DNA from: a virus | Virus record (IMG/VR): IMGVR_UViG_3300045120_000422 | Location: 1 to 45,272 of that record | Strand: one strand, 5' to 3' | Length of the DNA: 45,272 bases | Shown here: positions 1 through 45,272 of the stretch, in pieces | How positions within the stretch are numbered: position 1 is the first letter of the stretch | Layout: every line of letters starts with the position of its first letter | Position numbers and translations under genes: made by a program | Notes under the pieces: model-generated | Told to the model about the DNA's origin: nothing | Database searches by the model: none | Seen by the model: only the letters and a program-made list of their open reading frames with translations

Positions 1-127
1 CTCCGCCGTCTGTTTGGCAGCGGGCGTAAGCATTCGTGCCGCACCGACGCGAGGTGACATAGGCGAATAGGCCATAGCCGCCTCGAATGACCGACCTATC
101 GCCTCTTTGCTGTTGGGATCGACGCGG
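1..127. repeat. Terminal redundancy, left copy
   Basis: These 127 bases are identical to the last 127 bases of the window. The gene running off this end continues in frame at the other end, so the sequence is a circle of 45,145 unique bases. A 127-base overlap equals a common assembler k-mer size, so it is most likely an assembly signature of circular or permuted DNA and not a physical terminal repeat. Confidence 0.95.
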
Positions 128-5703: not shown

Positions 5704-6084
5704 TCATTGCTCCGGTCCGGCAACAAAGCACCGTATGAAATAGCGATCGGGCGTGTCCGCACTGGCGCCTGGGTTGTTGTCCACATACCAGACCACGGCA
5801 TCCCCGGTCGGATTGGCATGGTCAGTGACAACGGCAACAGTCGGCACCTTTCGCCAAGCCTCTGCAATGAATACCCAAATTTCAGTGCCGCGGCGCTCCC
5901 AATCCGTTCGATAGCCATCCGCAATATCGCAACACGGCACACCTTGCGGGCTGCGGACATGCTTGAACCACTCACGCACGTCAGCCGGAACATCCTTGTA
6001 TTTGTCGGGGTTGCCTCCGTTGCCGGCCAACGCAGCAGATAGGCTAGCTACTAGGCATCCCGTTACCAGGAGGTGTTTTTTCAT
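5704..6084 (-). CDS. Small secreted protein with CCD motif, 126 aa
   Basis: The start is ATG 6084 (MKKHLLVTG), preceded by GGAG at 6-nt spacing and lying 41 bases inside the end of the previous gene. Residues 1-21 form a classical signal peptide ending near SAALAG; VTGC at residues 7-10 could pass as a lipobox, but the hydrophobic core continues beyond it. The mature part has DVREWFKHVRSP, GVPCCDIADG and a late IRCFV, giving three Cys. From memory, similar short exported proteins are common in Bradyrhizobium-type genomes and their phages, with no known function. Its place among virion genes suggests a role at the cell envelope during late infection. Confidence 0.8.
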   Translation of the reverse strand: MKKHLLVTGCLVASLSAALAGNGGNPDKYKDVPADVREWFKHVRSPQGVPCCDIADGYRTDWERRGTEIWVFIAEAWRKVPTVAVVTDHANPTGDAVVWYVDNNPGASADTPDRYFIRCFVAGPEQ

Positions 6085-6595
6085 ATGGGCTCCAATTCTT
6101 GAGGTCCAGCCCGTAGACTCTATCCATAGGCTCATAGCCAACGGCGCGCAACGTCGCGTCGTGCTGATGCCCTTCCTTGGTGCGGGCTGTGACGAAATCG
6201 ACGCCCTTCTCTTTAAGAGTTTTGAGGGCGAACACGCGCATTTCCTCGTGCAATCCGGAGCCGCGATAGGCTGGCGCGATGTAGTGGATGTCATCCTCCG
6301 CCCATACGAGCTGGCGATAGTGCAGATGACCGTGCACGATGATGTGCACGCTGTAGCCGATCAGCTTGCCGTCGAGTCGCATGGTGATGAAGTGGAGCCT
6401 GCCTGCCCTGGCAAAGTCCACATACTTCTGCATGTTCGGAGCGAGCGAAAGAAGGTGCTTGAACTTGGCAACCTCTTGCCAGTGCTCCTTGAAGATCGGC
6501 ATTATCTCGTCAACGGCCGCCTTGCCGGACGAGTTTGGCTTCAGGAAAGAAGCCAGCTCCTCGACCTGGAAGATTGGCGCAGGTGAACCGTGCAT
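6044..6595 (-). CDS. GNAT-family acetyltransferase-like protein, 183 aa
   Basis: ATG 6595 has GGAGG exactly 6 bases upstream; the GTG one codon earlier would be too close. Residues 70-90 form the beta strands typical of the GNAT fold (FITMRLDGKLIGYSV), followed by YIAPAYRGSGLHEEM at 105-119, which fits motif A (Q/RxxGxG/A) for acetyl-CoA binding. A later strand, VGYEPMDRVYGL, fits the C-terminal beta strands. Proteins like this lie next to tail genes in many podoviruses, where their substrate is unknown. It sits between the tailspike region and the ejection proteins and may be packaged or act on a virion protein; that is inference. Confidence 0.75.
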   Translation of the reverse strand: MHGSPAPIFQVEELASFLKPNSSGKAAVDEIMPIFKEHWQEVAKFKHLLSLAPNMQKYVDFARAGRLHFITMRLDGKLIGYSVHIIVHGHLHYRQLVWAEDDIHYIAPAYRGSGLHEEMRVFALKTLKEKGVDFVTARTKEGHQHDATLRAVGYEPMDRVYGLDLKNWSPYEKTPPGNGMPSS

Positions 6596-6607
6596 CACGT
6601 GCCTCCA

Positions 6608-6955: not shown

Positions 6956-9186
6956 GGCACCACAGGCCCCATCACGTAGTTATTGTACGTGTTCCCGGTC
7001 AGCGTCACGCTGTTGGGCTGAATGTCCCACACCTTGAGGACGTCTGCGGCATGGATCGTGACGCCGGAGACATCCATGAAAGCTCCGCTCGCTCCATCGC
7101 CGATGATGCTTGTCACTGTGCCGGTAACCGAGGTGGTTGAATTGGTTATGTTCTGCCCTGGAACCGCAGCTCCCAAAAGCTGCCATGACCCAGTTACATC
7201 CGCGTTGACGATATGCAGCCTTGTCGTAGAGGTGGCTATATAGTTTGTGCCATCGATGGTTGTCGTGATGAGCCCTGCTCCAAAGCCTACCGTGACGCCG
7301 AAGCCTACAGGGTTGTTCTGGACGCCATTTCCATTGAATGTCGAATTAGAGATGGTCATGACTGTCGGAGCGGAGAAATTGTTGTTCAGGCTAACGTTCG
7401 GGTGTGTGACACCTAGACCTTCACCGATGAACGTGGTGTTGTTGAAGATGCCCTGTTGAGGCGTGCAATTGATGACCCCATGCGTGTAGAGGTTGGCCGT
7501 TCCCACCGGATAGGCCCTGAACGTCGAATTCTGGACATTGAGAAGCTTGACGGCTGAGCACCCGCCGAACTCAAACTGAAATGTGCTGTTCGTGATGTTT
7601 ATCGCATCTATGATCTTGTCTGGCTCGGCTCCTAGGAAAGTTGAATTGAGCAGGCTAACGTTGGCTACCGCGCTTGGGACAAAAAATGTTGCCGTGACAT
7701 TTGTGAACGACGCATTGTAAACGCCGGCTGGCTGGAAGTAATTATGAGAATGTATCCACTCCAGGTTGTTGGGCGAGTCGCTGCCATATGTAGGGTTTGG
7801 CCCGCCGGAGATATCGCTGGTCCGGCCGGAATAAGGATTCACGGCGAATGTCACGTTGTCCATGGCAAGTGAATCAGCAAATGGCACCGACGGTGACTGG
7901 CTGTTCAAGGGATCGCCGAGCGCAATGATCTTGGCCGGACCCATGCCGAAGTTCAGCGAGCTGGAAGTCGGCACGGAAAAATTTGTGCTCACGTGCGTTC
8001 GCGTCAATGGTCGATCGAGCTGGATAACTCCTGTCGTCGGGTCGGCCGATACGATCTTGACGTAATCCCAATATCTCGCATTTATCGGGTATGTGTTCGG
8101 CCCTTCCATCGCGTAAGACGTGACAAGAGCCCATTGGCCTGGCGGGAACACGGCCGGATCGGCTCCCGAGGGAACGATCGTGGTGACGCTTGATCCTCCG
8201 GAGACGCTTTGAATATACGGCCCGTACGGCTTGGCCCTGGCCTGAAAGCCGATGTTGCCGGTCAATGGCGTCGCCTCGATGAAGCTCCGATTGGTGATAA
8301 GTTGGTAGGCGCCGAACACTCCGCGCCCTACAGGATTAGCCCCGGTCCAGACCAAGGATTGCAAACCAGTCGTTGCATTCCATGTGTATGTTCCTCCCTC
8401 AGAAGGCGTCGTTATTGGTGTGGCGTAACCGGTTCCGGAGCCTGGACCGGTTGCCGTGAATGTGGTTCCGACAGTATTGTTAGCCGAGCCGATCAGCGTA
8501 AAATCAGTCGTACCGACAAAGTAAATCTGATATTGGCTGTTTGTTATAAAGGAGCCCGCCGCCACCAACTGAACATAAGTAGCAGGGTATTTGAGCTGCA
8601 TCGTGGCGTTGTTGCCGTGCAATGTGAGGTTTTTCAATCCCCAGAAAATGCGGTTGTCCGTGTAATAGTAGCATGACCCGGCATTGAGATTAATTGTGAG
8701 CGCGACCGGGACAGGCGTAAGCTTGTCCTGTAATGCACGCAACCCGCTACGCGCATTCCAAATCGCTTGCGTGTCCTCGGCCACACAATCTCCGACCGCA
8801 CCGTACTGCTCATAGGTGACGCTCATGGTCGGCGGATAGTCTATCTTGCTGGCCAGCACGGTATTCAGCTCGGCCGCAGTCAGGCAGAACTCAGCCTGGT
8901 TGGGCGCAGGGCATGGATTGGTGAATGTTCCTGTGCTCTGCGCCCCAGCGGGAGCGTCCGTTTTCTTCGCGAGCACCGCATTCAGCTCCGCAGCGGTGAG
9001 CCGCTGCCCTACTGTAAATCCACCTGAACTTTGCGGCTGCTGACCAGCCACCACATCCATTTTTTTGGCGAGGGCGGCCATCAGCGATGCCGTGGTCAGC
9101 ACCGGCCCATCAACAAAGGTTCCGGGGGTTTGCGACCACGCGGGCGCCATAAGGCTGAAAAAGACGATCACTCTAACTAATGACAT
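6952..9186 (-). CDS. Tailspike-like right-handed beta-helix protein, 744 aa
   Basis: ATG 9186 has a strong GGAGGACCAG leader. Residues 1-19 look like a signal peptide (MSLVRVIVFFSLMAPAWSQ), unusual for a tail protein. Residues 30-116 hold three copies of an LTAAELNxVLAxKxD unit. From about 120 there is a pectate-lyase-like start (YEQYGAVGDCVAEDTQAIWNA), as in phage tailspikes that unfold into parallel beta helices. Residues 430-690 are dense in Asn/Thr/Ser ladders (ITNSTFQF, NVSLLNSTF, LNVQNSTF, ISNSTFNGNG), fitting beta-helix rungs. Likely role: binding and perhaps cleaving host surface polysaccharide; no catalytic residues can be assigned by eye. Confidence 0.85.
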   Translation of the reverse strand: MSLVRVIVFFSLMAPAWSQTPGTFVDGPVLTTASLMAALAKKMDVVAGQQPQSSGGFTVGQRLTAAELNAVLAKKTDAPAGAQSTGTFTNPCPAPNQAEFCLTAAELNTVLASKIDYPPTMSVTYEQYGAVGDCVAEDTQAIWNARSGLRALQDKLTPVPVALTINLNAGSCYYYTDNRIFWGLKNLTLHGNNATMQLKYPATYVQLVAAGSFITNSQYQIYFVGTTDFTLIGSANNTVGTTFTATGPGSGTGYATPITTPSEGGTYTWNATTGLQSLVWTGANPVGRGVFGAYQLITNRSFIEATPLTGNIGFQARAKPYGPYIQSVSGGSSVTTIVPSGADPAVFPPGQWALVTSYAMEGPNTYPINARYWDYVKIVSADPTTGVIQLDRPLTRTHVSTNFSVPTSSSLNFGMGPAKIIALGDPLNSQSPSVPFADSLAMDNVTFAVNPYSGRTSDISGGPNPTYGSDSPNNLEWIHSHNYFQPAGVYNASFTNVTATFFVPSAVANVSLLNSTFLGAEPDKIIDAINITNSTFQFEFGGCSAVKLLNVQNSTFRAYPVGTANLYTHGVINCTPQQGIFNNTTFIGEGLGVTHPNVSLNNNFSAPTVMTISNSTFNGNGVQNNPVGFGVTVGFGAGLITTTIDGTNYIATSTTRLHIVNADVTGSWQLLGAAVPGQNITNSTTSVTGTVTSIIGDGASGAFMDVSGVTIHAADVLKVWDIQPNSVTLTGNTYNNYVMGPVVP

Positions 9187-11020
9187 CTGGTCCTCCTAAC
9201 TTGCTCACGTCCAGAATAAATGGCCCGGGGGGAGGCGGGGGCGGCGGAGGCGGGCTGGGCGGCAGCGGCGGGTTGAGGGTTGTCGGACCCCAGAGCGCCC
9301 GTTCCTGGTACTCTATGGCGATCAGGTTCAGCACGGAATTTGAGACCGTCCCTGTCACCGTAGCACCAAGAAATTTGCCTTGTCCATCTACATCCGTATA
9401 GGGAAACTGGAAGCCACGACCGATCCAGGTCACTACGCCACCGACATTGTTGATCCAATTCACCACGCCGCCAACGTTGTTGATCCACGTCACGGGGGCC
9501 GCACCGGTAAAACTATACTGTCGGCTGAAGTTCTCATTGTCCACAGAGAACGTCAGAGGCGTAACGCCCTGCATCACGGCACCGATGCCGGCCCGGATAG
9601 GCTGCTTCGCCTGAACCTGATTACCGTGCGGGGTAAGAGCTGTCGTCAGCGTGATTTTAACGGAGGCGGAAGGGTCTTGAAGCAGTTGCGTGATGTCGGC
9701 TCCCGAGCTGCCGTATGTCTCGACCTGAGTCGTGGCCGCCAACTGCGCCGCGACAATGCTGCGCAGCCCGTCGCCCTGCGAAGTGATAAACCACTTTTTC
9801 TCTTGGAAGGCGCAGATGATGCTCCGCTCGCCCGCAATCGGGTCGATGTACCGCACGAGCAGCAAGTAGCAGTGAATGTCCCTGATGTCGTTGAGCGCGG
9901 CGGATGGAGGAAACGAAAAGTTGATCTTGCCGCTGAAAATGCCATCAAGATCGTCGCTTATTTTCTCAACGCTGGCGCCGAAGATCGCATAGACGCCGTT
10001 CTTGTTGGCAAACAGCACCAGGCGATTGTAGCTCGCGATCGTGAGCGGGAAGGACGTTCCGATGTCCGAGGCGAGAATGAGCGGCGTGAACAGCGTGATA
10101 GTGGACACGACGCTGATGCTGCCGATCTGCCTCACCGACGAATCGCCGAAGATATAAAGGTAATTGTTGAGAGTGCGCAGCGCCGTTATATTGTGCGACA
10201 AGTCCGCATCGGTGATCGTCGTCGTGCCGGCCGCGTTGGTTGGATTGGTGTCGTCATAGCCGGCCGTGCCGGTGAATTGCAAAACACGCCCATTGGCCCA
10301 CCACACCCTCCCCGCGAAGACCGCGATTGTGGTGCCGAGCTGAATGGGCCAGATGATGGCCGTGGCCGCCGCATTGGCGCCCCCGCCGCCGGAGAAGGCC
10401 ACCGTCAGGGTATCGCCAGCTTTGTACCCGGTGCCGGCCGTATCAAGAACAACCGAGATGACCACCTTTCCGGCCAGCACGGCATGAGCCGTCGCTCCCG
10501 TTCCGCTGCCGCCGTTTATCTTGACGGTCGGAACGCTTGTGTAGTTAGAGCCGCCGTTGGTGACCTTGATGTTGGGGCTGACGCCGCCGCCTGTGACAAA
10601 AACATGCCCATCCCATTGCGAGTATCCGGCGATCGGGTCTTGTATGAGAATGCGCGCCGAGGCAAACACCGTCATGTCAGGCGCGGTGAACGTCCCGTCC
10701 GGCGCAAATACAGTCTCCAATCCTGTTGCGGTATCCACCGCAATGCCGGCACCGGACACCGCGAAAACGATGATGTAGTCAATCGTCCCGATGTTCGCGA
10801 AAAACATCGAGTTCACGGTCTCCATCGTAAGCGCCGTGAGCGCGGCAATAGGACCAGGCGTCGGCACGAGGTTGTTAGCCGCGATCGGCTGGAGATTCTC
10901 CATCCACGCCGCCTCGGTCTCCGGGAGAGACCGGCGATCCAGCCGAGTGTTCATCTTCTCGAACTGAGAGAAGATGATGAACTTGGTCGCTTCGCGCTGC
11001 TTTGCCCCTACGTCTGGCAT
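9173..11020 (-). CDS. P22 gp10-like tail accessory / stabilisation protein, 615 aa
   Basis: The N-terminal LDRRSLPETEAAWMENLQPIA stretch and the long run of short beta repeats that follows resemble podoviral packaged-DNA stabilisation (gp10-like) proteins. ATG 11020 is the only ATG near the conserved N-terminus; a TTG at 11068 would add 16 residues, so the start is uncertain. An inserted GG.(N/G)YTSVPTV..NGGSGTGATA module occupies about 150-225. Near the C-terminus a 30-bp tandem repeat encodes WINNVGGVV units, and there is a run of ten Pro close to the end. It follows the adaptor and precedes the tailspike, as expected for a tail plug. Confidence 0.75.
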   Translation of the reverse strand: MPDVGAKQREATKFIIFSQFEKMNTRLDRRSLPETEAAWMENLQPIAANNLVPTPGPIAALTALTMETVNSMFFANIGTIDYIIVFAVSGAGIAVDTATGLETVFAPDGTFTAPDMTVFASARILIQDPIAGYSQWDGHVFVTGGGVSPNIKVTNGGSNYTSVPTVKINGGSGTGATAHAVLAGKVVISVVLDTAGTGYKAGDTLTVAFSGGGGANAAATAIIWPIQLGTTIAVFAGRVWWANGRVLQFTGTAGYDDTNPTNAAGTTTITDADLSHNITALRTLNNYLYIFGDSSVRQIGSISVVSTITLFTPLILASDIGTSFPLTIASYNRLVLFANKNGVYAIFGASVEKISDDLDGIFSGKINFSFPPSAALNDIRDIHCYLLLVRYIDPIAGERSIICAFQEKKWFITSQGDGLRSIVAAQLAATTQVETYGSSGADITQLLQDPSASVKITLTTALTPHGNQVQAKQPIRAGIGAVMQGVTPLTFSVDNENFSRQYSFTGAAPVTWINNVGGVVNWINNVGGVVTWIGRGFQFPYTDVDGQGKFLGATVTGTVSNSVLNLIAIEYQERALWGPTTLNPPLPPSPPPPPPPPPGPFILDVSKLGGPDVIS

Positions 11021-11024
11021 ATCA

Positions 11025-11165
11025 TCACGGCCAGGCTTGCGTAAAAACGTACCATCGTTCGATATCAAAATTTACGGAAACCCATATCATCGCTGCCGCC
11101 CACAGCACCGTTGGAGACAGCAAGCAGGCCACTAAAAGCCAGGATTTCCAGGATTTATAGTTCAT
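11025..11165 (-). CDS. Small membrane protein, 46 aa
   Basis: ATG 11165 shares a base with the sulfotransferase stop (TAATG), and the stop lies 4 bases before the next gene's ATG. The product starts MNYKSWKSWLL and has one hydrophobic segment of about 23 residues (WLLVACLLSPTVLWAAAMIWVSV), so it is a single-pass inner-membrane peptide or an uncleaved signal anchor. Function unknown. It fills what would otherwise be an empty gap in a fully packed operon. Confidence 0.6.
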   Translation of the reverse strand: MNYKSWKSWLLVACLLSPTVLWAAAMIWVSVNFDIERWYVFTQAWP

Positions 11166-11929
11166 TACTTCCTCCAGAAGCAGTCATTCTCGAAGCGCTT
11201 GAACAGCTCCGGCGGCAGGATCGTCTTGCGTTCGATAAACTCCACTTTCCCGCGCACGGTATGGAGGCCGGGGGTGCCCAGCTCGCGGTCATATTCCTCG
11301 GCGCTGTACTCGACGTTATCGAAGTCGTGCTTGAAATAGTCTTTTTCCAGGAATCTGTATATTCTCCTTATCGTGGTCTCCGGATATGCTGCCAAGTCCC
11401 GGTATTCCACCATGATCAGCTTGCCGGATTGCTCGCCGTAATACGCCTCTTTGATAGCGTCCAATGCATGGCCGACCACGCCATCGCTTGATGCGAGCTG
11501 GTTCACGCGGGTGAAGACCGTGCCGCCTGGCTTGTAGTCGAATATCCCGGATAGCTCGAAGGCGTTCTTTCGCATCAGGCGCTCGAACGAATCCATAATC
11601 CATGAGACCTCGCGAACACAACAAATTACGCGCGCCTTTGGGAACAGTTGAGTCAGGGCCGGAAGCTTCGCGCACCAACCTCGATTGGTGTCGAATACCA
11701 CCATGTGAAGTTTTGTGTCGTAGTAGCTCTCAAACAGTTGCTCCAGGACATCACGCCGCTGTTCATCTGTGATTGCCCCATTGCGATGATTCATGGCTCC
11801 TTCAAGAGCCTTGTACATGGCAAAAACCGGGCTGGTCATGGCGGCGTGGAAGCTGGGGTTTTGCCGCAGGATGCCGGCTAGGAGCGTCGATCCCGATCGC
11901 GGCAGGCCGGAGATGAAATGAATGTTCAT
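11165..11929 (-). CDS. PAPS-type sulfotransferase-like protein, 254 aa
   Basis: Residues 5-16 (FISGLPRSGSTL) are the 5'-phosphosulfate-binding loop of PAPS-dependent sulfotransferases. Residues 100-117 (RVICCVREVSWIMDSFER) fit the 3'-phosphate-binding strand and helix, with RE in place of the usual RD/RN. A later YRDLAAYPETTIRRIYRFL fits the C-terminal helix of the family. Predicted reaction: transfer of sulfate from PAPS to a hydroxyl of a carbohydrate or protein. The start overlaps the adaptor stop by 4 bases (ATGA), so it is made with structural proteins. Plausible targets are the host surface polysaccharide or a virion component; the sequence does not say which. Confidence 0.88.
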   Translation of the reverse strand: MNIHFISGLPRSGSTLLAGILRQNPSFHAAMTSPVFAMYKALEGAMNHRNGAITDEQRRDVLEQLFESYYDTKLHMVVFDTNRGWCAKLPALTQLFPKARVICCVREVSWIMDSFERLMRKNAFELSGIFDYKPGGTVFTRVNQLASSDGVVGHALDAIKEAYYGEQSGKLIMVEYRDLAAYPETTIRRIYRFLEKDYFKHDFDNVEYSAEEYDRELGTPGLHTVRGKVEFIERKTILPPELFKRFENDCFWRK

Positions 11930-12822
11930 CCGCGCATCACCTTACGCTGGAAGCTGCTGTTGTAGGGGTTGGGTATGCGAATGCCGGCCGCCGTCGTGAT
12001 GTACTGGCGTACCCTCTGCTCATACTTCTTGTCGTAATATTCCGCCTGCTCAAAATTCTGATGCTTCATCAGGCCAATCGCTGCAGCGCGGAACTGAAGG
12101 GCCTTGTTCCACGGCGGCAACACCTGCGCATCGTTGTCAGTGGCATTGACCAGCGGTAGTGGCAGGCTAATCATGTCCCACTCGGACAAATAGAGCTGAT
12201 CCGGCGGCGGCTGTAGATACACGTTCAGGTCCTGGGGGTGGAGGGTCCAAATGCTCGGCCGAGACTGGTACGCTCCGGACGACCAGCCTCGCATGTAAGC
12301 CTGAAAGAGCGTGAAGCCTCGAAACGACAGAAGATAGCGTTGAGTGTTCCAGATGTTTGCGATGGAAAGCACCTGGAAGGCGTTCAGGAACGTCACCGCG
12401 GTCGCCGTCGCTCCCGTGCCGCCGCCGGTGTCGGAAATCGCTATGTTTGGCACGCTTGTGTAGTTATCACCCCACTGCGTCATCGTGATGGAGGACAGCG
12501 TTCCGGCGGTGATGACCGGGACTCCCGTTGCGGTAACTCCGCCGGCCGGGGCAGGGTCGAACGTGACAATCGTGGCCGCCGTATAGCCCGAGCCGCCGGG
12601 GCCGACAATGGCACCCGCCACGGCCCCATCGATAGAATAGATTTCCTGGCCAGGAATAAGTTGCACGCCGGTCGTCAGATGGCGCACGCAATGCGTGTCC
12701 ATCGCGATGTCCTCGCGCGCCTCGTTGATGTAGTCGGTCAGCTCTGAAGTGCTGAAAGTCGCTTGGCTAGCGTCGTGAACCAGCCGCTGGACCTGGGTCA
12801 GGTAGGTTTGGAGCTGGGCCAT
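11926..12822 (-). CDS. Head-tail connector / adaptor protein with inserted beta domain, 298 aa
   Basis: The N-terminus (LTQVQRLVHDASQATFSTSELTDYINEAREDIA) has the helical, Trp-less start typical of podoviral adaptors that dock on the portal, and the C-terminus (FRAAAIGLMKHQNFEQAEYYDKKYEQRV) is the matching helical hairpin. Residues about 67-145 are an insertion of Gly-rich beta sequence (GGSGYTAATIVTF, DNYTSVPNIAISDTGGGTGATA) also found in two other virion proteins here. It lies two genes before the gp10-like protein, in the expected order. The start ATG 12822 lies inside the previous gene by 56 bases. Confidence 0.75.
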   Translation of the reverse strand: MAQLQTYLTQVQRLVHDASQATFSTSELTDYINEAREDIAMDTHCVRHLTTGVQLIPGQEIYSIDGAVAGAIVGPGGSGYTAATIVTFDPAPAGGVTATGVPVITAGTLSSITMTQWGDNYTSVPNIAISDTGGGTGATATAVTFLNAFQVLSIANIWNTQRYLLSFRGFTLFQAYMRGWSSGAYQSRPSIWTLHPQDLNVYLQPPPDQLYLSEWDMISLPLPLVNATDNDAQVLPPWNKALQFRAAAIGLMKHQNFEQAEYYDKKYEQRVRQYITTAAGIRIPNPYNSSFQRKVMRG

Positions 12823-14975: not shown

Positions 14976-15170
14976 TTACTGACCGGGAACGGTCGGCGGC
15001 ACGATGCCAAGCCCAAAAGCCTCGTCGTTACGCATGAGCCGCAATTCTTCCTGTGACGGCGCTCCGCCGTTGTAGCTCTGGATCAGGTTCGACAGCACGC
15101 GAAGCTCCACCAGCATGCTGTTCTCTGCCGTGACAGACGACAGTCCGACGCCGGGGATATAGGTGCTCAT
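14976..15170 (-). CDS. Hypothetical protein, 64 aa
   Basis: ATG 15170 overlaps the upstream stop by four bases (ATGA). Short helical protein (SVTAENSMLVELRVLSNLIQSY) with a loop-like C-terminus (GIVPPTVPGQ). Similar small proteins accompany capsid genes in related podoviruses, from memory. Role unknown. Confidence 0.65.
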   Translation of the reverse strand: MSTYIPGVGLSSVTAENSMLVELRVLSNLIQSYNGGAPSQEELRLMRNDEAFGLGIVPPTVPGQ

Positions 15171-16357
15171 TGAACTCGTCCTTGAAGTACCGACACGTCA
15201 TTGACGCCGCCGACCACGGCGGTTCCAATGCCGAGGCTGCTGTTGTCTGCAGTCGTATCAAATACCGAGATGATCGGAACCTTCTGAAAGCCGAAGCCGG
15301 GGTCCTCGATCACGAACGAGGAAATCGCGCCGCCTCCAATCACTGTCGCGCCGCGCGCGGCTCGGGGCAGAGGAATTTGATTGTTGAAGGCACTAGACAC
15401 CAAACCGAGAGACGACTCCCAGATGGGAACCGCCGCGCCCGTGTAGCCGCCGCCGGCGGCCGTCACGGTGACCGAGGTCATCGTGAAGGACATGATGGCG
15501 GTCGCTGTCGCGGAGCCCACGCCGGTGACGGTCACAACCGGAATGGTGGTTCCGGTGTAGCCGAAGCCGTAGTTCATGATGCCGATGCCGGTCAGCGTCC
15601 CGGAGCCGGTCAGTGCAACCGAGGTCAGCTGGCAACCGTTCAGCGAGCTGTTTGCCGTGAACGACGAGCCGCCGGGAAGGTTGGTCGGATACACCAGCCC
15701 GGGCGGCGGAAAAGCGTTTGCCGCCACACCAGCGGTCGGCCCACCCTGATAGTTGGGCGGCTGCGGAATGACGTACCAATTCGGCGTAGAAGCATACCCG
15801 GCGCCGACGTTAACCATCGTGACTGTAGACAGCACTCCGGCCGATGAGATGGCGCCGACCGCAGTTGCCTGAATGCCGCCAACAGGAGGCGGATCGGCGA
15901 TCAGCAGAGGCGGCATAAGAAACCCGGAGCCACCCTGCGTGATGGTCGGGGCCGCAACCGAGCCACCAACGATCGCGTAGCCGGTCGCGGTCGCCAGAGC
16001 ACCGCCAACCGCGGGCGCGCCAAACGTCACAGCCGCGCCCGTTGCCGTGAAGCCGATGCCATTGGTGCCGCCAGAGCCTGCCGCGGTGACAGACGCGCCA
16101 ACCGCAACGCCGGACATGTTCACAAGGCGGAAATTCGTTCCGTCGGACGAAATCCAATTGAGAGCGTCGGAAGGCTGGGTTGTGCGCCACACCAAGCCGT
16201 TCGGATCGAACCACTGCAAATTCGTCTGAATTCCTTGGGTTACGATGAAGTTGCCGGGAGGGAGCATGTAGACGCCGCCGCTCGGCAGAACGATCACACC
16301 GTCGCCGTTTGCAGGCGCCTGAAGTGGAAGGGGAAAAACTCCGCCGATTCGGGACAT
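15167..16357 (-). CDS. Beta-rich virion protein with repeated GGxGY modules, 396 aa (head fibre or decoration)
   Basis: ATG 16357 has GAGG 5 bases upstream, 7 bases after the capsid gene stop. After a short N-terminal part (PANGDGVIVLPSGGVYMLPPGNFIVTQG, which looks like a virion-anchoring motif), the protein is a series of Gly-rich beta units, with QGGSGFLMPP, NVGAGYASTP, NYGFGYTGTT, AAGGGYTGAA and DPGFGFQKVP spaced by 35-60 residues. The same module is inserted in the adaptor and gp10-like proteins. Likely exposed on the head surface; could bind other proteins or sugars. Confidence 0.7.
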   Translation of the reverse strand: MSRIGGVFPLPLQAPANGDGVIVLPSGGVYMLPPGNFIVTQGIQTNLQWFDPNGLVWRTTQPSDALNWISSDGTNFRLVNMSGVAVGASVTAAGSGGTNGIGFTATGAAVTFGAPAVGGALATATGYAIVGGSVAAPTITQGGSGFLMPPLLIADPPPVGGIQATAVGAISSAGVLSTVTMVNVGAGYASTPNWYVIPQPPNYQGGPTAGVAANAFPPPGLVYPTNLPGGSSFTANSSLNGCQLTSVALTGSGTLTGIGIMNYGFGYTGTTIPVVTVTGVGSATATAIMSFTMTSVTVTAAGGGYTGAAVPIWESSLGLVSSAFNNQIPLPRAARGATVIGGGAISSFVIEDPGFGFQKVPIISVFDTTADNSSLGIGTAVVGGVNDVSVLQGRVQ

Positions 16358-43843: not shown

Positions 43844-45272
43844 CTATTTGCCGCCAGAGGCATCACCTTCGATGGTTCTACCAGCGGTAGCGGGCAGCGC
43901 GCGCTCCAAAGGATGTTCCGAAAAGGTCTTCATGAGATGATCGGCCAGCTTCTCGGCCATCGGCCCCCCACGCTCCATAATCCTAATATTGTTTTGCATA
44001 GCCGCCTCGTTGTTGCCGCCCCTGACATATGCGCTGGCGCGGGTTATTGCTGCCTTTACGGTTGGCGATGACGGTGGGATTACTGTCTGTGGAGTAATTC
44101 CACCTCCACCTGGCGCCTCTCCTGGAATGCGGCCTATCAACGGATTCTTACGGTCTGTGCTCTCCGTGGCCGCCGCCGGCGAAACAAGCAAATCCATGGG
44201 ATTGAAGCTCATGGGGCCCCCCCCGCCGGGCTCCATGGGATTGCCTCCGCCTCCTGGCGACATGGCGGCACCTGCCGCAACGGGAGCAGCGGCAGCGGCA
44301 GCCGGTGGTACCCCATAGGGCATTCGCTGCTTGGGCACAACGCCGCTAGCTACGGACGAGGGCGCACGGGCTCGCGTCATTTCTTCAACACGCTCGAATT
44401 TTCCTACAGTCAAGCGCTCAGACAACCATTGCGACACTGCACCGATAAATAAAGAGCCCGTGGCCATTCCGTGTCCGCCCGTTAGATCGGCCGCGAGAGC
44501 GCTCCCCCATCCAGTCAAGGGATGTTTGGGACCGAGCCGAGCAAGATGACGGGCCAAGTTTGAGAGCGTCGAACCGCGCGAAACCTCTTGCAACAGCTCT
44601 TGTTCCTCAGGATTAAATTTTGCACGCTGTTTTGGATTGACCAATATCGCTTTTGCGCGCTGCTTAATCGAATTGGCTTTGTTAGCTCCCACACCCGACG
44701 TGGCCGCGTTAAGCTCGCCGCGTTCTTGCTCCCCGGTAAGAAGCTCGGAGCGTTTAACAGCCGCCCAATCGCCGCGCGCTTGCTTCGCTTGTGCCGCAAA
44801 TTCCGGGATATTCGAGAGATAATCGTCAATTCGTTCCCGCGCTATGCTGGCGGCGAGTGCGTCTGACGATCCTGGCTTGTCCCGAATGACATGCCCAAGC
44901 TGCTGTCGCACAGAATCAATATCCGCAAACACCACGTGCTCACCTTCCGGCTTTTTCAGTTCTTCCAAAGCAGTAAACGTGCGATCCTGATTGCGCGGTC
45001 GGAAGCCGTACTCGTTTCCGATGAGTTCATCGCGTATTTTTGTGGAGAGGTCTTCGACAACAGCAGGCTGCAATGGAACGCCAGAGTTTCGTAGCGACTT
45101 ATACGCCTCGTTAGAGGACTCTTTAATGGCCTCGCGAGGCAGTGCCTCCGCCGTCTGTTTGGCAGCGGGCGTAAGCATTCGTGCCGCACCGACGCGAGGT
45201 GACATAGGCGAATAGGCCATAGCCGCCTCGAATGACCGACCTATCGCCTCTTTGCTGTTGGGATCGACGCGG
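43844..45272 (-). CDS. Putative internal virion (ejection) protein, main part (gene crosses the junction)
   Basis: Codons continuing from bases 324-1; the last 127 bases repeat the left end of the window. The whole protein is 541 residues. Middle part helical and charged (RDELIGNEYGFRPRNQDRTFTALEELKK, then SIARERIDDYLSNIPEFAAQAKQARGDWAAVKRSELLTGEQ), followed by NPKQRAKFNPEEQELLQEVSRG and a Gly/Pro/Met-rich linker with APVAAGAAMSPGGGG. No catalytic motif seen. Fits the group of four large virion-internal candidates; function inferred from position. Confidence 0.75.
   Translation of the reverse strand, partial: RVDPNSKEAIGRSFEAAMAYSPMSPRVGAARMLTPAAKQTAEALPREAIKESSNEAYKSLRNSGVPLQPAVVEDLSTKIRDELIGNEYGFRPRNQDRTFTALEELKKPEGEHVVFADIDSVRQQLGHVIRDKPGSSDALAASIARERIDDYLSNIPEFAAQAKQARGDWAAVKRSELLTGEQERGELNAATSGVGANKANSIKQRAKAILVNPKQRAKFNPEEQELLQEVSRGSTLSNLARHLARLGPKHPLTGWGSALAADLTGGHGMATGSLFIGAVSQWLSERLTVGKFERVEEMTRARAPSSVASGVVPKQRMPYGVPPAAAAAAPVAAGAAMSPGGGGNPMEPGGGGPMSFNPMDLLVSPAAATESTDRKNPLIGRIPGEAPGGGGITPQTVIPPSSPTVKAAITRASAYVRGGNNEAAMQNNIRIMERGGPMAEKLADHLMKTFSEHPLERALPATAGRTIEGDASGGK
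45146..45272. repeat. Terminal redundancy, right copy
   Basis: Exact copy of the first 127 bases of the window. Joining the two copies restores one open minus-strand reading frame, which supports circular closure. Confidence 0.95.

Follow-up and report, generated by a model that had tools for sequence, protein, structure and literature searches.

The window analyzed here, i.e., the whole stretch of 45,272 nucleotides making up the viral record IMGVR_UViG_3300045120_000422, begins and ends in an exact 127-bp repeat that closes the record on itself, and we therefore take this 45-kb genome as complete. On its minus strand, together with other virion genes, lies an open reading frame (ORF) for a sulfotransferase, preceded by the gene of a SU10-type adaptor (connector) and followed by a 46-residue ORF and the gene of a gp10-like virion structural protein, all on the same strand (Table 1). 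The frame starts with ATG and has no internal stops, and its product matches Pfam Sulfotransfer_3 (PF13469) over residues 5-197 with 70.8 bits against a cut-off of 27 (E 2.6e-19), Sulfotransfer_1 with 39.4 against a cut-off of 22, and phrog_27463 (E 8.8e-44), a PHROGs family without function. The assignment as a sulfotransferase is far above chance, and the complete PAPS-type enzyme proposed in an initial annotation of this DNA is thus confirmed, as is the connector upstream of it within a tightly packed string of virion genes.

Table 1 Features of the window, with positions counted from its first nucleotide
Feature	Position	Strand	Remarks
Terminal repeat, left copy	1..127		exact
GNAT acetyltransferase gene	6044..6598	-	within the structural block
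Spike-like protein, 744 aa	6952..9186	-	start resembles a Sec signal peptide
gp10-like virion structural protein, phrog_3287-type region	9173..11020	-	start at ATG 11020, in agreement with the N-termini of relatives
46-aa ORF, one hydrophobic stretch	11025..11165	-	no PHROG match
Sulfotransferase, RaxST-homologue family (by sequence)	11165..11929	-	254 aa, 29.4 kDa
3' PAPS-binding motif REVSWIMDS, R106 to S114	11588..11614	-	R106 and S114 invariant in 105/105 aligned members
5' PAPS-binding loop GLPRSGSTLL, residues 8-17	11879..11908	-	R11 invariant in 105/105 aligned members
Connector, SU10-type adaptor, 298 aa	11926..12822	-	Pfam SU10_adaptor, E 3e-7
Terminator-like hairpin with eight T	18873-18855		between portal and capsid genes
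Terminal repeat, right copy	45146..45272		exact

The initial annotation further described the gene as coupled to both neighbors by overlapping starts. This holds for the connector gene, the end of which shares 4 bp (ATGA) with the beginning of the sulfotransferase gene, while any coupling to the gp10-like gene is indirect, since the 46-residue ORF lies between them, its ATG overlapping the sulfotransferase stop codon by the final base (TAATG). The gp10-like reading frame is open to 11068, and its start codon lies beyond the small ORF, which is predicted from its hydrophobic stretch (mean Kyte-Doolittle 2.05 over 19 residues) to encode a membrane protein. Late expression of the sulfotransferase is plausible, judging by gene position only. 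No hairpin of a quality similar to that between the portal and capsid genes was found around the sulfotransferase, promoter-like sites occur in the window in a number expected by chance, and tRNA and Rfam scans gave no matches.

Several further observations concern the structural block itself. The spike-like protein begins MSLVRVIVFFSLMAPAWSQ; Sec-like starts of this kind, unusual for a virion protein assembled in the cytosol, are also present in the spike- or fibre-like genes L116:11990-13996 and L030:5208-7211. Repeats of the type GG-x-GYT-x-x-P are common to three virion proteins (9173-11068, 11926-12822 and 15167-16357, all on the minus strand), and matches to phrog_460, 701, 19630 and 5342 span these repeats and thus carry little functional information. 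The GNAT acetyltransferase gene is kept in several relatives of the phage (L108, L117, L118 and L119).

Relationship to RaxST and predicted fold

Alignment of 105 family members shows about 20 strictly invariant positions, including G8, L9, P10, R11, G13, S14, T15, R83, R106, S114 and E116, and further R141, Y176, D214, L222, H223, P239 and W252, and the window sulfotransferase keeps every one of them. It thereby has the residues that define the PAPS site in PF13469, i.e., the Arg of the 5' loop (R11) and the Arg and Ser of the 3' motif (R106 and S114). Its structure is predicted with a mean pLDDT of 95.6 and a pTM of 0.91, and the closest solved folds are those of the animal tyrosylprotein sulfotransferases TPST1 and TPST2 (PDB 5wrj, 3ap1; Z 19.7 for 5wrj_A over 230 residues, rmsd 3.1), followed by the sulfotransferase domains of curacin synthase and olefin synthase (Z 16.7), with heparan/carbohydrate 3-O-sulfotransferases sharing the fold at Z about 14. 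When the family profile is compared with solved chains, TPST1 is likewise the best match (E 1.8e-12), with TPST2 also among the best. However, the window enzyme has only 17% identity to these proteins and no membrane anchor, and their catalytic Glu (in GEETR, after the 5' loop) is not conserved, none of the 105 members having a Glu at aligned columns 31-34. Lacking this conserved Glu, the window enzyme is not a TPST, and its acceptor could differ from tyrosine. R83 was considered as the equivalent of the TPST catalytic Lys and dropped, since two alignments disagree. An export signal is absent, the first strand of the predicted fold beginning at residue 3.

The tyrosylprotein sulfotransferase RaxST, encoded in the raxX-raxSTAB cluster of Xanthomonas, has Arg-11 and Ser-118 as its catalytic residues, and raxST homologues of about 40% identity are widespread outside rax clusters (PMC6637879). 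Relatives of the window enzyme at 45-63% identity are found in bacteria and in unrelated phages, and 51 of 299 genomes belonging to the order of a Lysobacterales genome (L019) hold a match. One of these (L279) has a sulfotransferase gene followed by an HlyD-type gene and the gene of a C39-peptidase ABC transporter, i.e., in the order raxST-raxA-raxB, and its sulfotransferase has Arg at position 11 and Ser at position 118. This protein shares 45% identity with the window enzyme over 258 residues (E 1e-87) and is a presumptive RaxST, recognized from the downstream gene order and residue numbers and not as a named sequence. Compared with this presumptive reference, the window enzyme shows what is expected of a RaxST homologue (about 40% or more full-length similarity, similar length and PAPS motifs), including the same catalytic Arg and Ser motifs and, by prediction, the same PAPS donor, and like RaxST it has relatives beside genes of exported proteins and type I secretion. 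It differs in its setting: RaxST proper is encoded with raxX, raxA and raxB, while the window gene lies in a phage between virion genes, without RaxX, RaxA or RaxB, and has the connector, the 46-residue ORF and the gp10-like gene as neighbors. By sequence, we assign it to the RaxST-homologue family.

The phylogeny of the family pairs the window enzyme with that of the viral locus L028 (99/96) and places the two, with weak support (81/0), beside autotransporter-linked bacterial enzymes, while the RaxST-like protein groups with portal-linked phage enzymes (98/86). A three-residue loop with a Glu, nearly invariant in bacterial members, is missing from the window enzyme. The reading that the window enzyme lost a catalytic Glu was abandoned, as this residue is also missing from the presumptive RaxST and from a whole group of phage enzymes linked to RCC1-propeller genes.

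Distribution and genomic neighborhoods

A search of viral contigs with the capsid protein gave at least 121 relatives of the window phage, the best 80 at 67-93% identity, and two annotated phages from Manatee Spring are also relatives by this protein. The connector and gp10-like genes could be cleanly placed in 42 relatives, abutting in 30 and separated by gaps or inserts in the rest. None of these 42 junctions holds a sulfotransferase, nor does any of 28 whole records of relatives, most of them longer than 30 kb, in a search whose query recovers the window's own gene. Because of this absence from relatives, the sulfotransferase is an accessory gain in the window phage. The junction is an insertion hotspot, inserts of 1.3-4.3 kb being present there in L116, L119, L121 and L156, those of L116 and L121 holding spike- or fibre-like genes. 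The sulfotransferase gene has a G+C content of 0.548, the whole genome one of 0.591, the flanking genes 0.588-0.598 and the spike gene 0.551; in composition, the sulfotransferase gene is not strongly foreign.

Among bacteria (throughout this analysis, genes outside annotated records were called with a simple codon-usage caller), 14 of the 19 genome loci have the sulfotransferase gene directly upstream of a giant protein with an LEPR motif or DUF4347, and genes of the tail-collar-domain and outer-membrane efflux types are often close by (Pfam test covering L006, L007 and L016). In Lysobacterales, it is often found directly upstream of proteins of 1,480-2,730 residues; all four of these giants that were tested have the extended signal peptide of type V secretion (ESPR), and three have an autotransporter barrel or passenger repeats. 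In Caballeronia, the genes encode, in this order, a matrixin-domain repeat protein, the sulfotransferase, an APS kinase, a C39 type I secretion ABC protein, an HlyD protein and an outer-membrane protein, and an APS kinase gene also adjoins the sulfotransferase in Nostoc and Sulfuritalea. What most bacterial loci have in common is a large protein that is made in the cytosol and then exported, by secretion routes that differ. The pairing with adhesins is not universal, since in a plasmid search acetic acid bacteria were found to carry distant members beside an AraC regulator and without an adhesin. As a separate observation, tail-collar proteins, the sulfotransferase, a giant LEPR/DUF4347 adhesin-like protein and an outer-membrane channel-type gene recur together (L007, L009-L012, L014, L015, L017 and L019-L021, around position 10000), a cluster which from its sequences resembles a so far undescribed system of sulfated adhesins.

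The sulfotransferase has relatives in at least 579 viral stretches. Neighborhoods were compared in the best 80 of these, ranked by similarity to the window enzyme and with close relatives included, and many of the marine loci represent one lineage. Within these 80, immediate downstream neighbors (n=78) are APS-kinase-like in 41 cases and collagen-like in 8, and upstream neighbors include 43 phrog_7759-like proteins, 10 SU10-type portals, 8 RCC1-propeller proteins and several tail fibres. Four arrangements can be distinguished: a SU10-type portal gene followed by the sulfotransferase and then by collagen-like or other genes (L034, L035, L037, L038, L045-L047, L052, L075 and L082); a large group with genes for fibre-like, Lcl_C lectin-like and 141-residue phrog_7759-like proteins, the sulfotransferase and an APS-kinase-like protein; an RCC1-propeller gene, the sulfotransferase and glycosyltransferase-type genes; and sulfotransferases within carbamoyltransferase/FkbM clusters. 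Glycosyltransferase or FkbM neighbors occur in a minority of the viral loci; L036, L040 and L048 lie among carbamoyltransferase, FkbM methyltransferase and glycosyltransferase genes. The APS kinase assignment is firm in bacteria and in the record of L059 (E 1.9e-59), and weaker in the large viral group, where the matches are partial with a best E of about 1e-16.

In that group, the sulfotransferase follows the 141-residue protein in all 77 testable relatives (L054:7567-7992; L189-L266), which amounts to a fixed cassette and not to independent events, because these loci form one lineage (at least 76% identity). The 141-residue protein, whose structure is poorly predicted (pLDDT 63.3), contains a conserved YYxTCDxDAD stretch. 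Substrates of TPSTs have a tyrosine next to acidic residues, and a tyrosine beside acidic residues in this stretch may be taken as a lead for a substrate, no more. The window does not belong to this cassette: it has neither the 141-residue partner nor an APS kinase, although the record closes on itself. In L028, the closest viral relative, the sulfotransferase is opposite in orientation to the portal gene.

A putative virion-modifying enzyme

Our preferred reading, to which we give a probability of roughly 0.45, is that the window gene, carried as cargo at a hotspot, codes for a cytosolic protein sulfotransferase of the RaxST-homologue family that depends on PAPS and modifies a virion protein with PAPS of the host. 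The sequence shows an intact enzyme, its family, its place among the virion genes, its absence in relatives and the recurring neighbors of its relatives, while we infer its activity, late expression, substrate, acceptor residue and benefit. The phage would have taken up the gene between the connector and gp10-like genes, and the enzyme would presumably be made together with the virion proteins, PAPS coming from the host because the window has no APS kinase. Since it has no secretion signal, it would meet the virion proteins in the cytosol, and would have to act there, at the site of PAPS and of the folding and assembly of virion proteins. Its target would be a virion protein, most likely a tail-exposed one, which could be sulfated before or during assembly on a tyrosine or on some other hydroxyl group. 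Sulfate on such surface residues would then alter the binding of the particle, an effect that sulfotyrosine has in other secreted proteins. In the window, candidate substrates are the connector, the spike-like 744-residue protein and the gp10-like protein. Sulfation of a co-made surface protein is the simplest reading because RaxST acts on a protein and because genes of the family lie beside those of exported or particle-surface proteins. A comparable arrangement is known from AIDA-I, where a cytosolic heptosyltransferase is encoded directly upstream of its large exported substrate, although that system is bacterial and transfers a sugar instead of sulfate. More tentatively, several unrelated phage lineages may use RaxST-type enzymes, some with an APS kinase of their own, to sulfate their tail or fibre proteins (sulfotyrosine).

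Some observations speak against the preferred reading. Since cargo of every kind accumulates in tail loci, neighborhood alone is weak evidence; the window is without the APS kinase and the 141-residue partner of other phages, and the orientation in L028 is opposite to the portal; and viral relatives among glycosyltransferase, carbamoyltransferase and FkbM genes suit glycan modification. The initial annotation had left open whether the virion or the host surface is modified, with sulfation of host surface polysaccharide as its example. The virion side of this proposal is better supported, given the RaxST family, the TPST folds and the tail-fibre, portal, collagen-like and adhesin neighbors, while the polysaccharide example and the suggested tie to rhizobia find little support, and no result points to a rhizobial host. 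In particular, the NCBIfam model of the Nod-factor sulfotransferase NoeE, the only match to a polysaccharide or Nod-factor family, scores 23.8 bits against a cut-off of 500. This score, the nearer position of protein sulfotransferases in both fold and sequence, and the absence of a glycosyltransferase among the Pfam-tested ORFs of the window make a sugar target—either a precursor of host surface polysaccharide or a glycan on the phage tail—decidedly unlikely, even if rhizobial sulfotransferases for Nod factors and polysaccharides exist, the carbohydrate 3-O-sulfotransferases share the fold, and glycan-modifying genes surround a minority of the viral relatives.

A host protein as the substrate is unlikely as well. 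The enzyme would in this case sulfate an exported adhesin or outer-membrane receptor on its way out, with the effect that released phage or competitors bind less to the infected cell or its debris. Such host proteins can be natural substrates, since giant exported adhesins and autotransporters are the genomic partners of the bacterial relatives, and accessory status fits an exclusion-type gene; however, the gene lies in the virion block and not among early genes (a matter of position, not of timing), and in other phages the relatives form part of a dedicated fibre-type cassette. That the junction is a general insertion hotspot, and that the sulfotransferase domains of olefin and curacin synthases are the second-best fold matches, would fit a sulfation of small molecules (in detoxification or signalling) or a drain on PAPS, with the place in the virion block an accident of cargo insertion. 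This seems very unlikely because, in unrelated phages and bacteria alike, the gene steadily occurs with fibre and adhesin genes, and because the many positions invariant across 18 diverse members suggest a shared type of substrate. Finally, the missing loop Glu might indicate an inactive relic or a non-catalytic component of the virion, a highly improbable explanation given that the presumptive RaxST and the RCC1-linked phage group are without this Glu too, that all residues invariant across the 105 members are kept, PAPS site included, and that the reading frame is intact and the predicted fold confident.

Phage sulfotransferases have been reported before, and their function was called unclear (PMC10580990). 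Those of cyanophages and marine phages (S-SKS1, S-SRM01 and S-SCSM1; OM43 phages, PMC10580990) belong to the same broad family and are likewise phage-borne, but show 24-30% identity to the window enzyme in the phage records found and are annotated without function. In the open-access papers searched, we found no paper linking phage sulfotransferases to RaxST and no description of virion sulfation in phages or of a fibre-sulfotransferase-APS kinase cassette. The kind of enzyme is thus known, while the link to RaxST, the phage setting and the fibre/APS kinase cassettes appear new. The RaxST-family link, together with the company of fibre-type and APS kinase genes, makes the question of what phage sulfotransferases do a testable one, and for the raxST homologues of bacteria it suggests a role in the sulfation of the adjacent giant adhesin or autotransporter.
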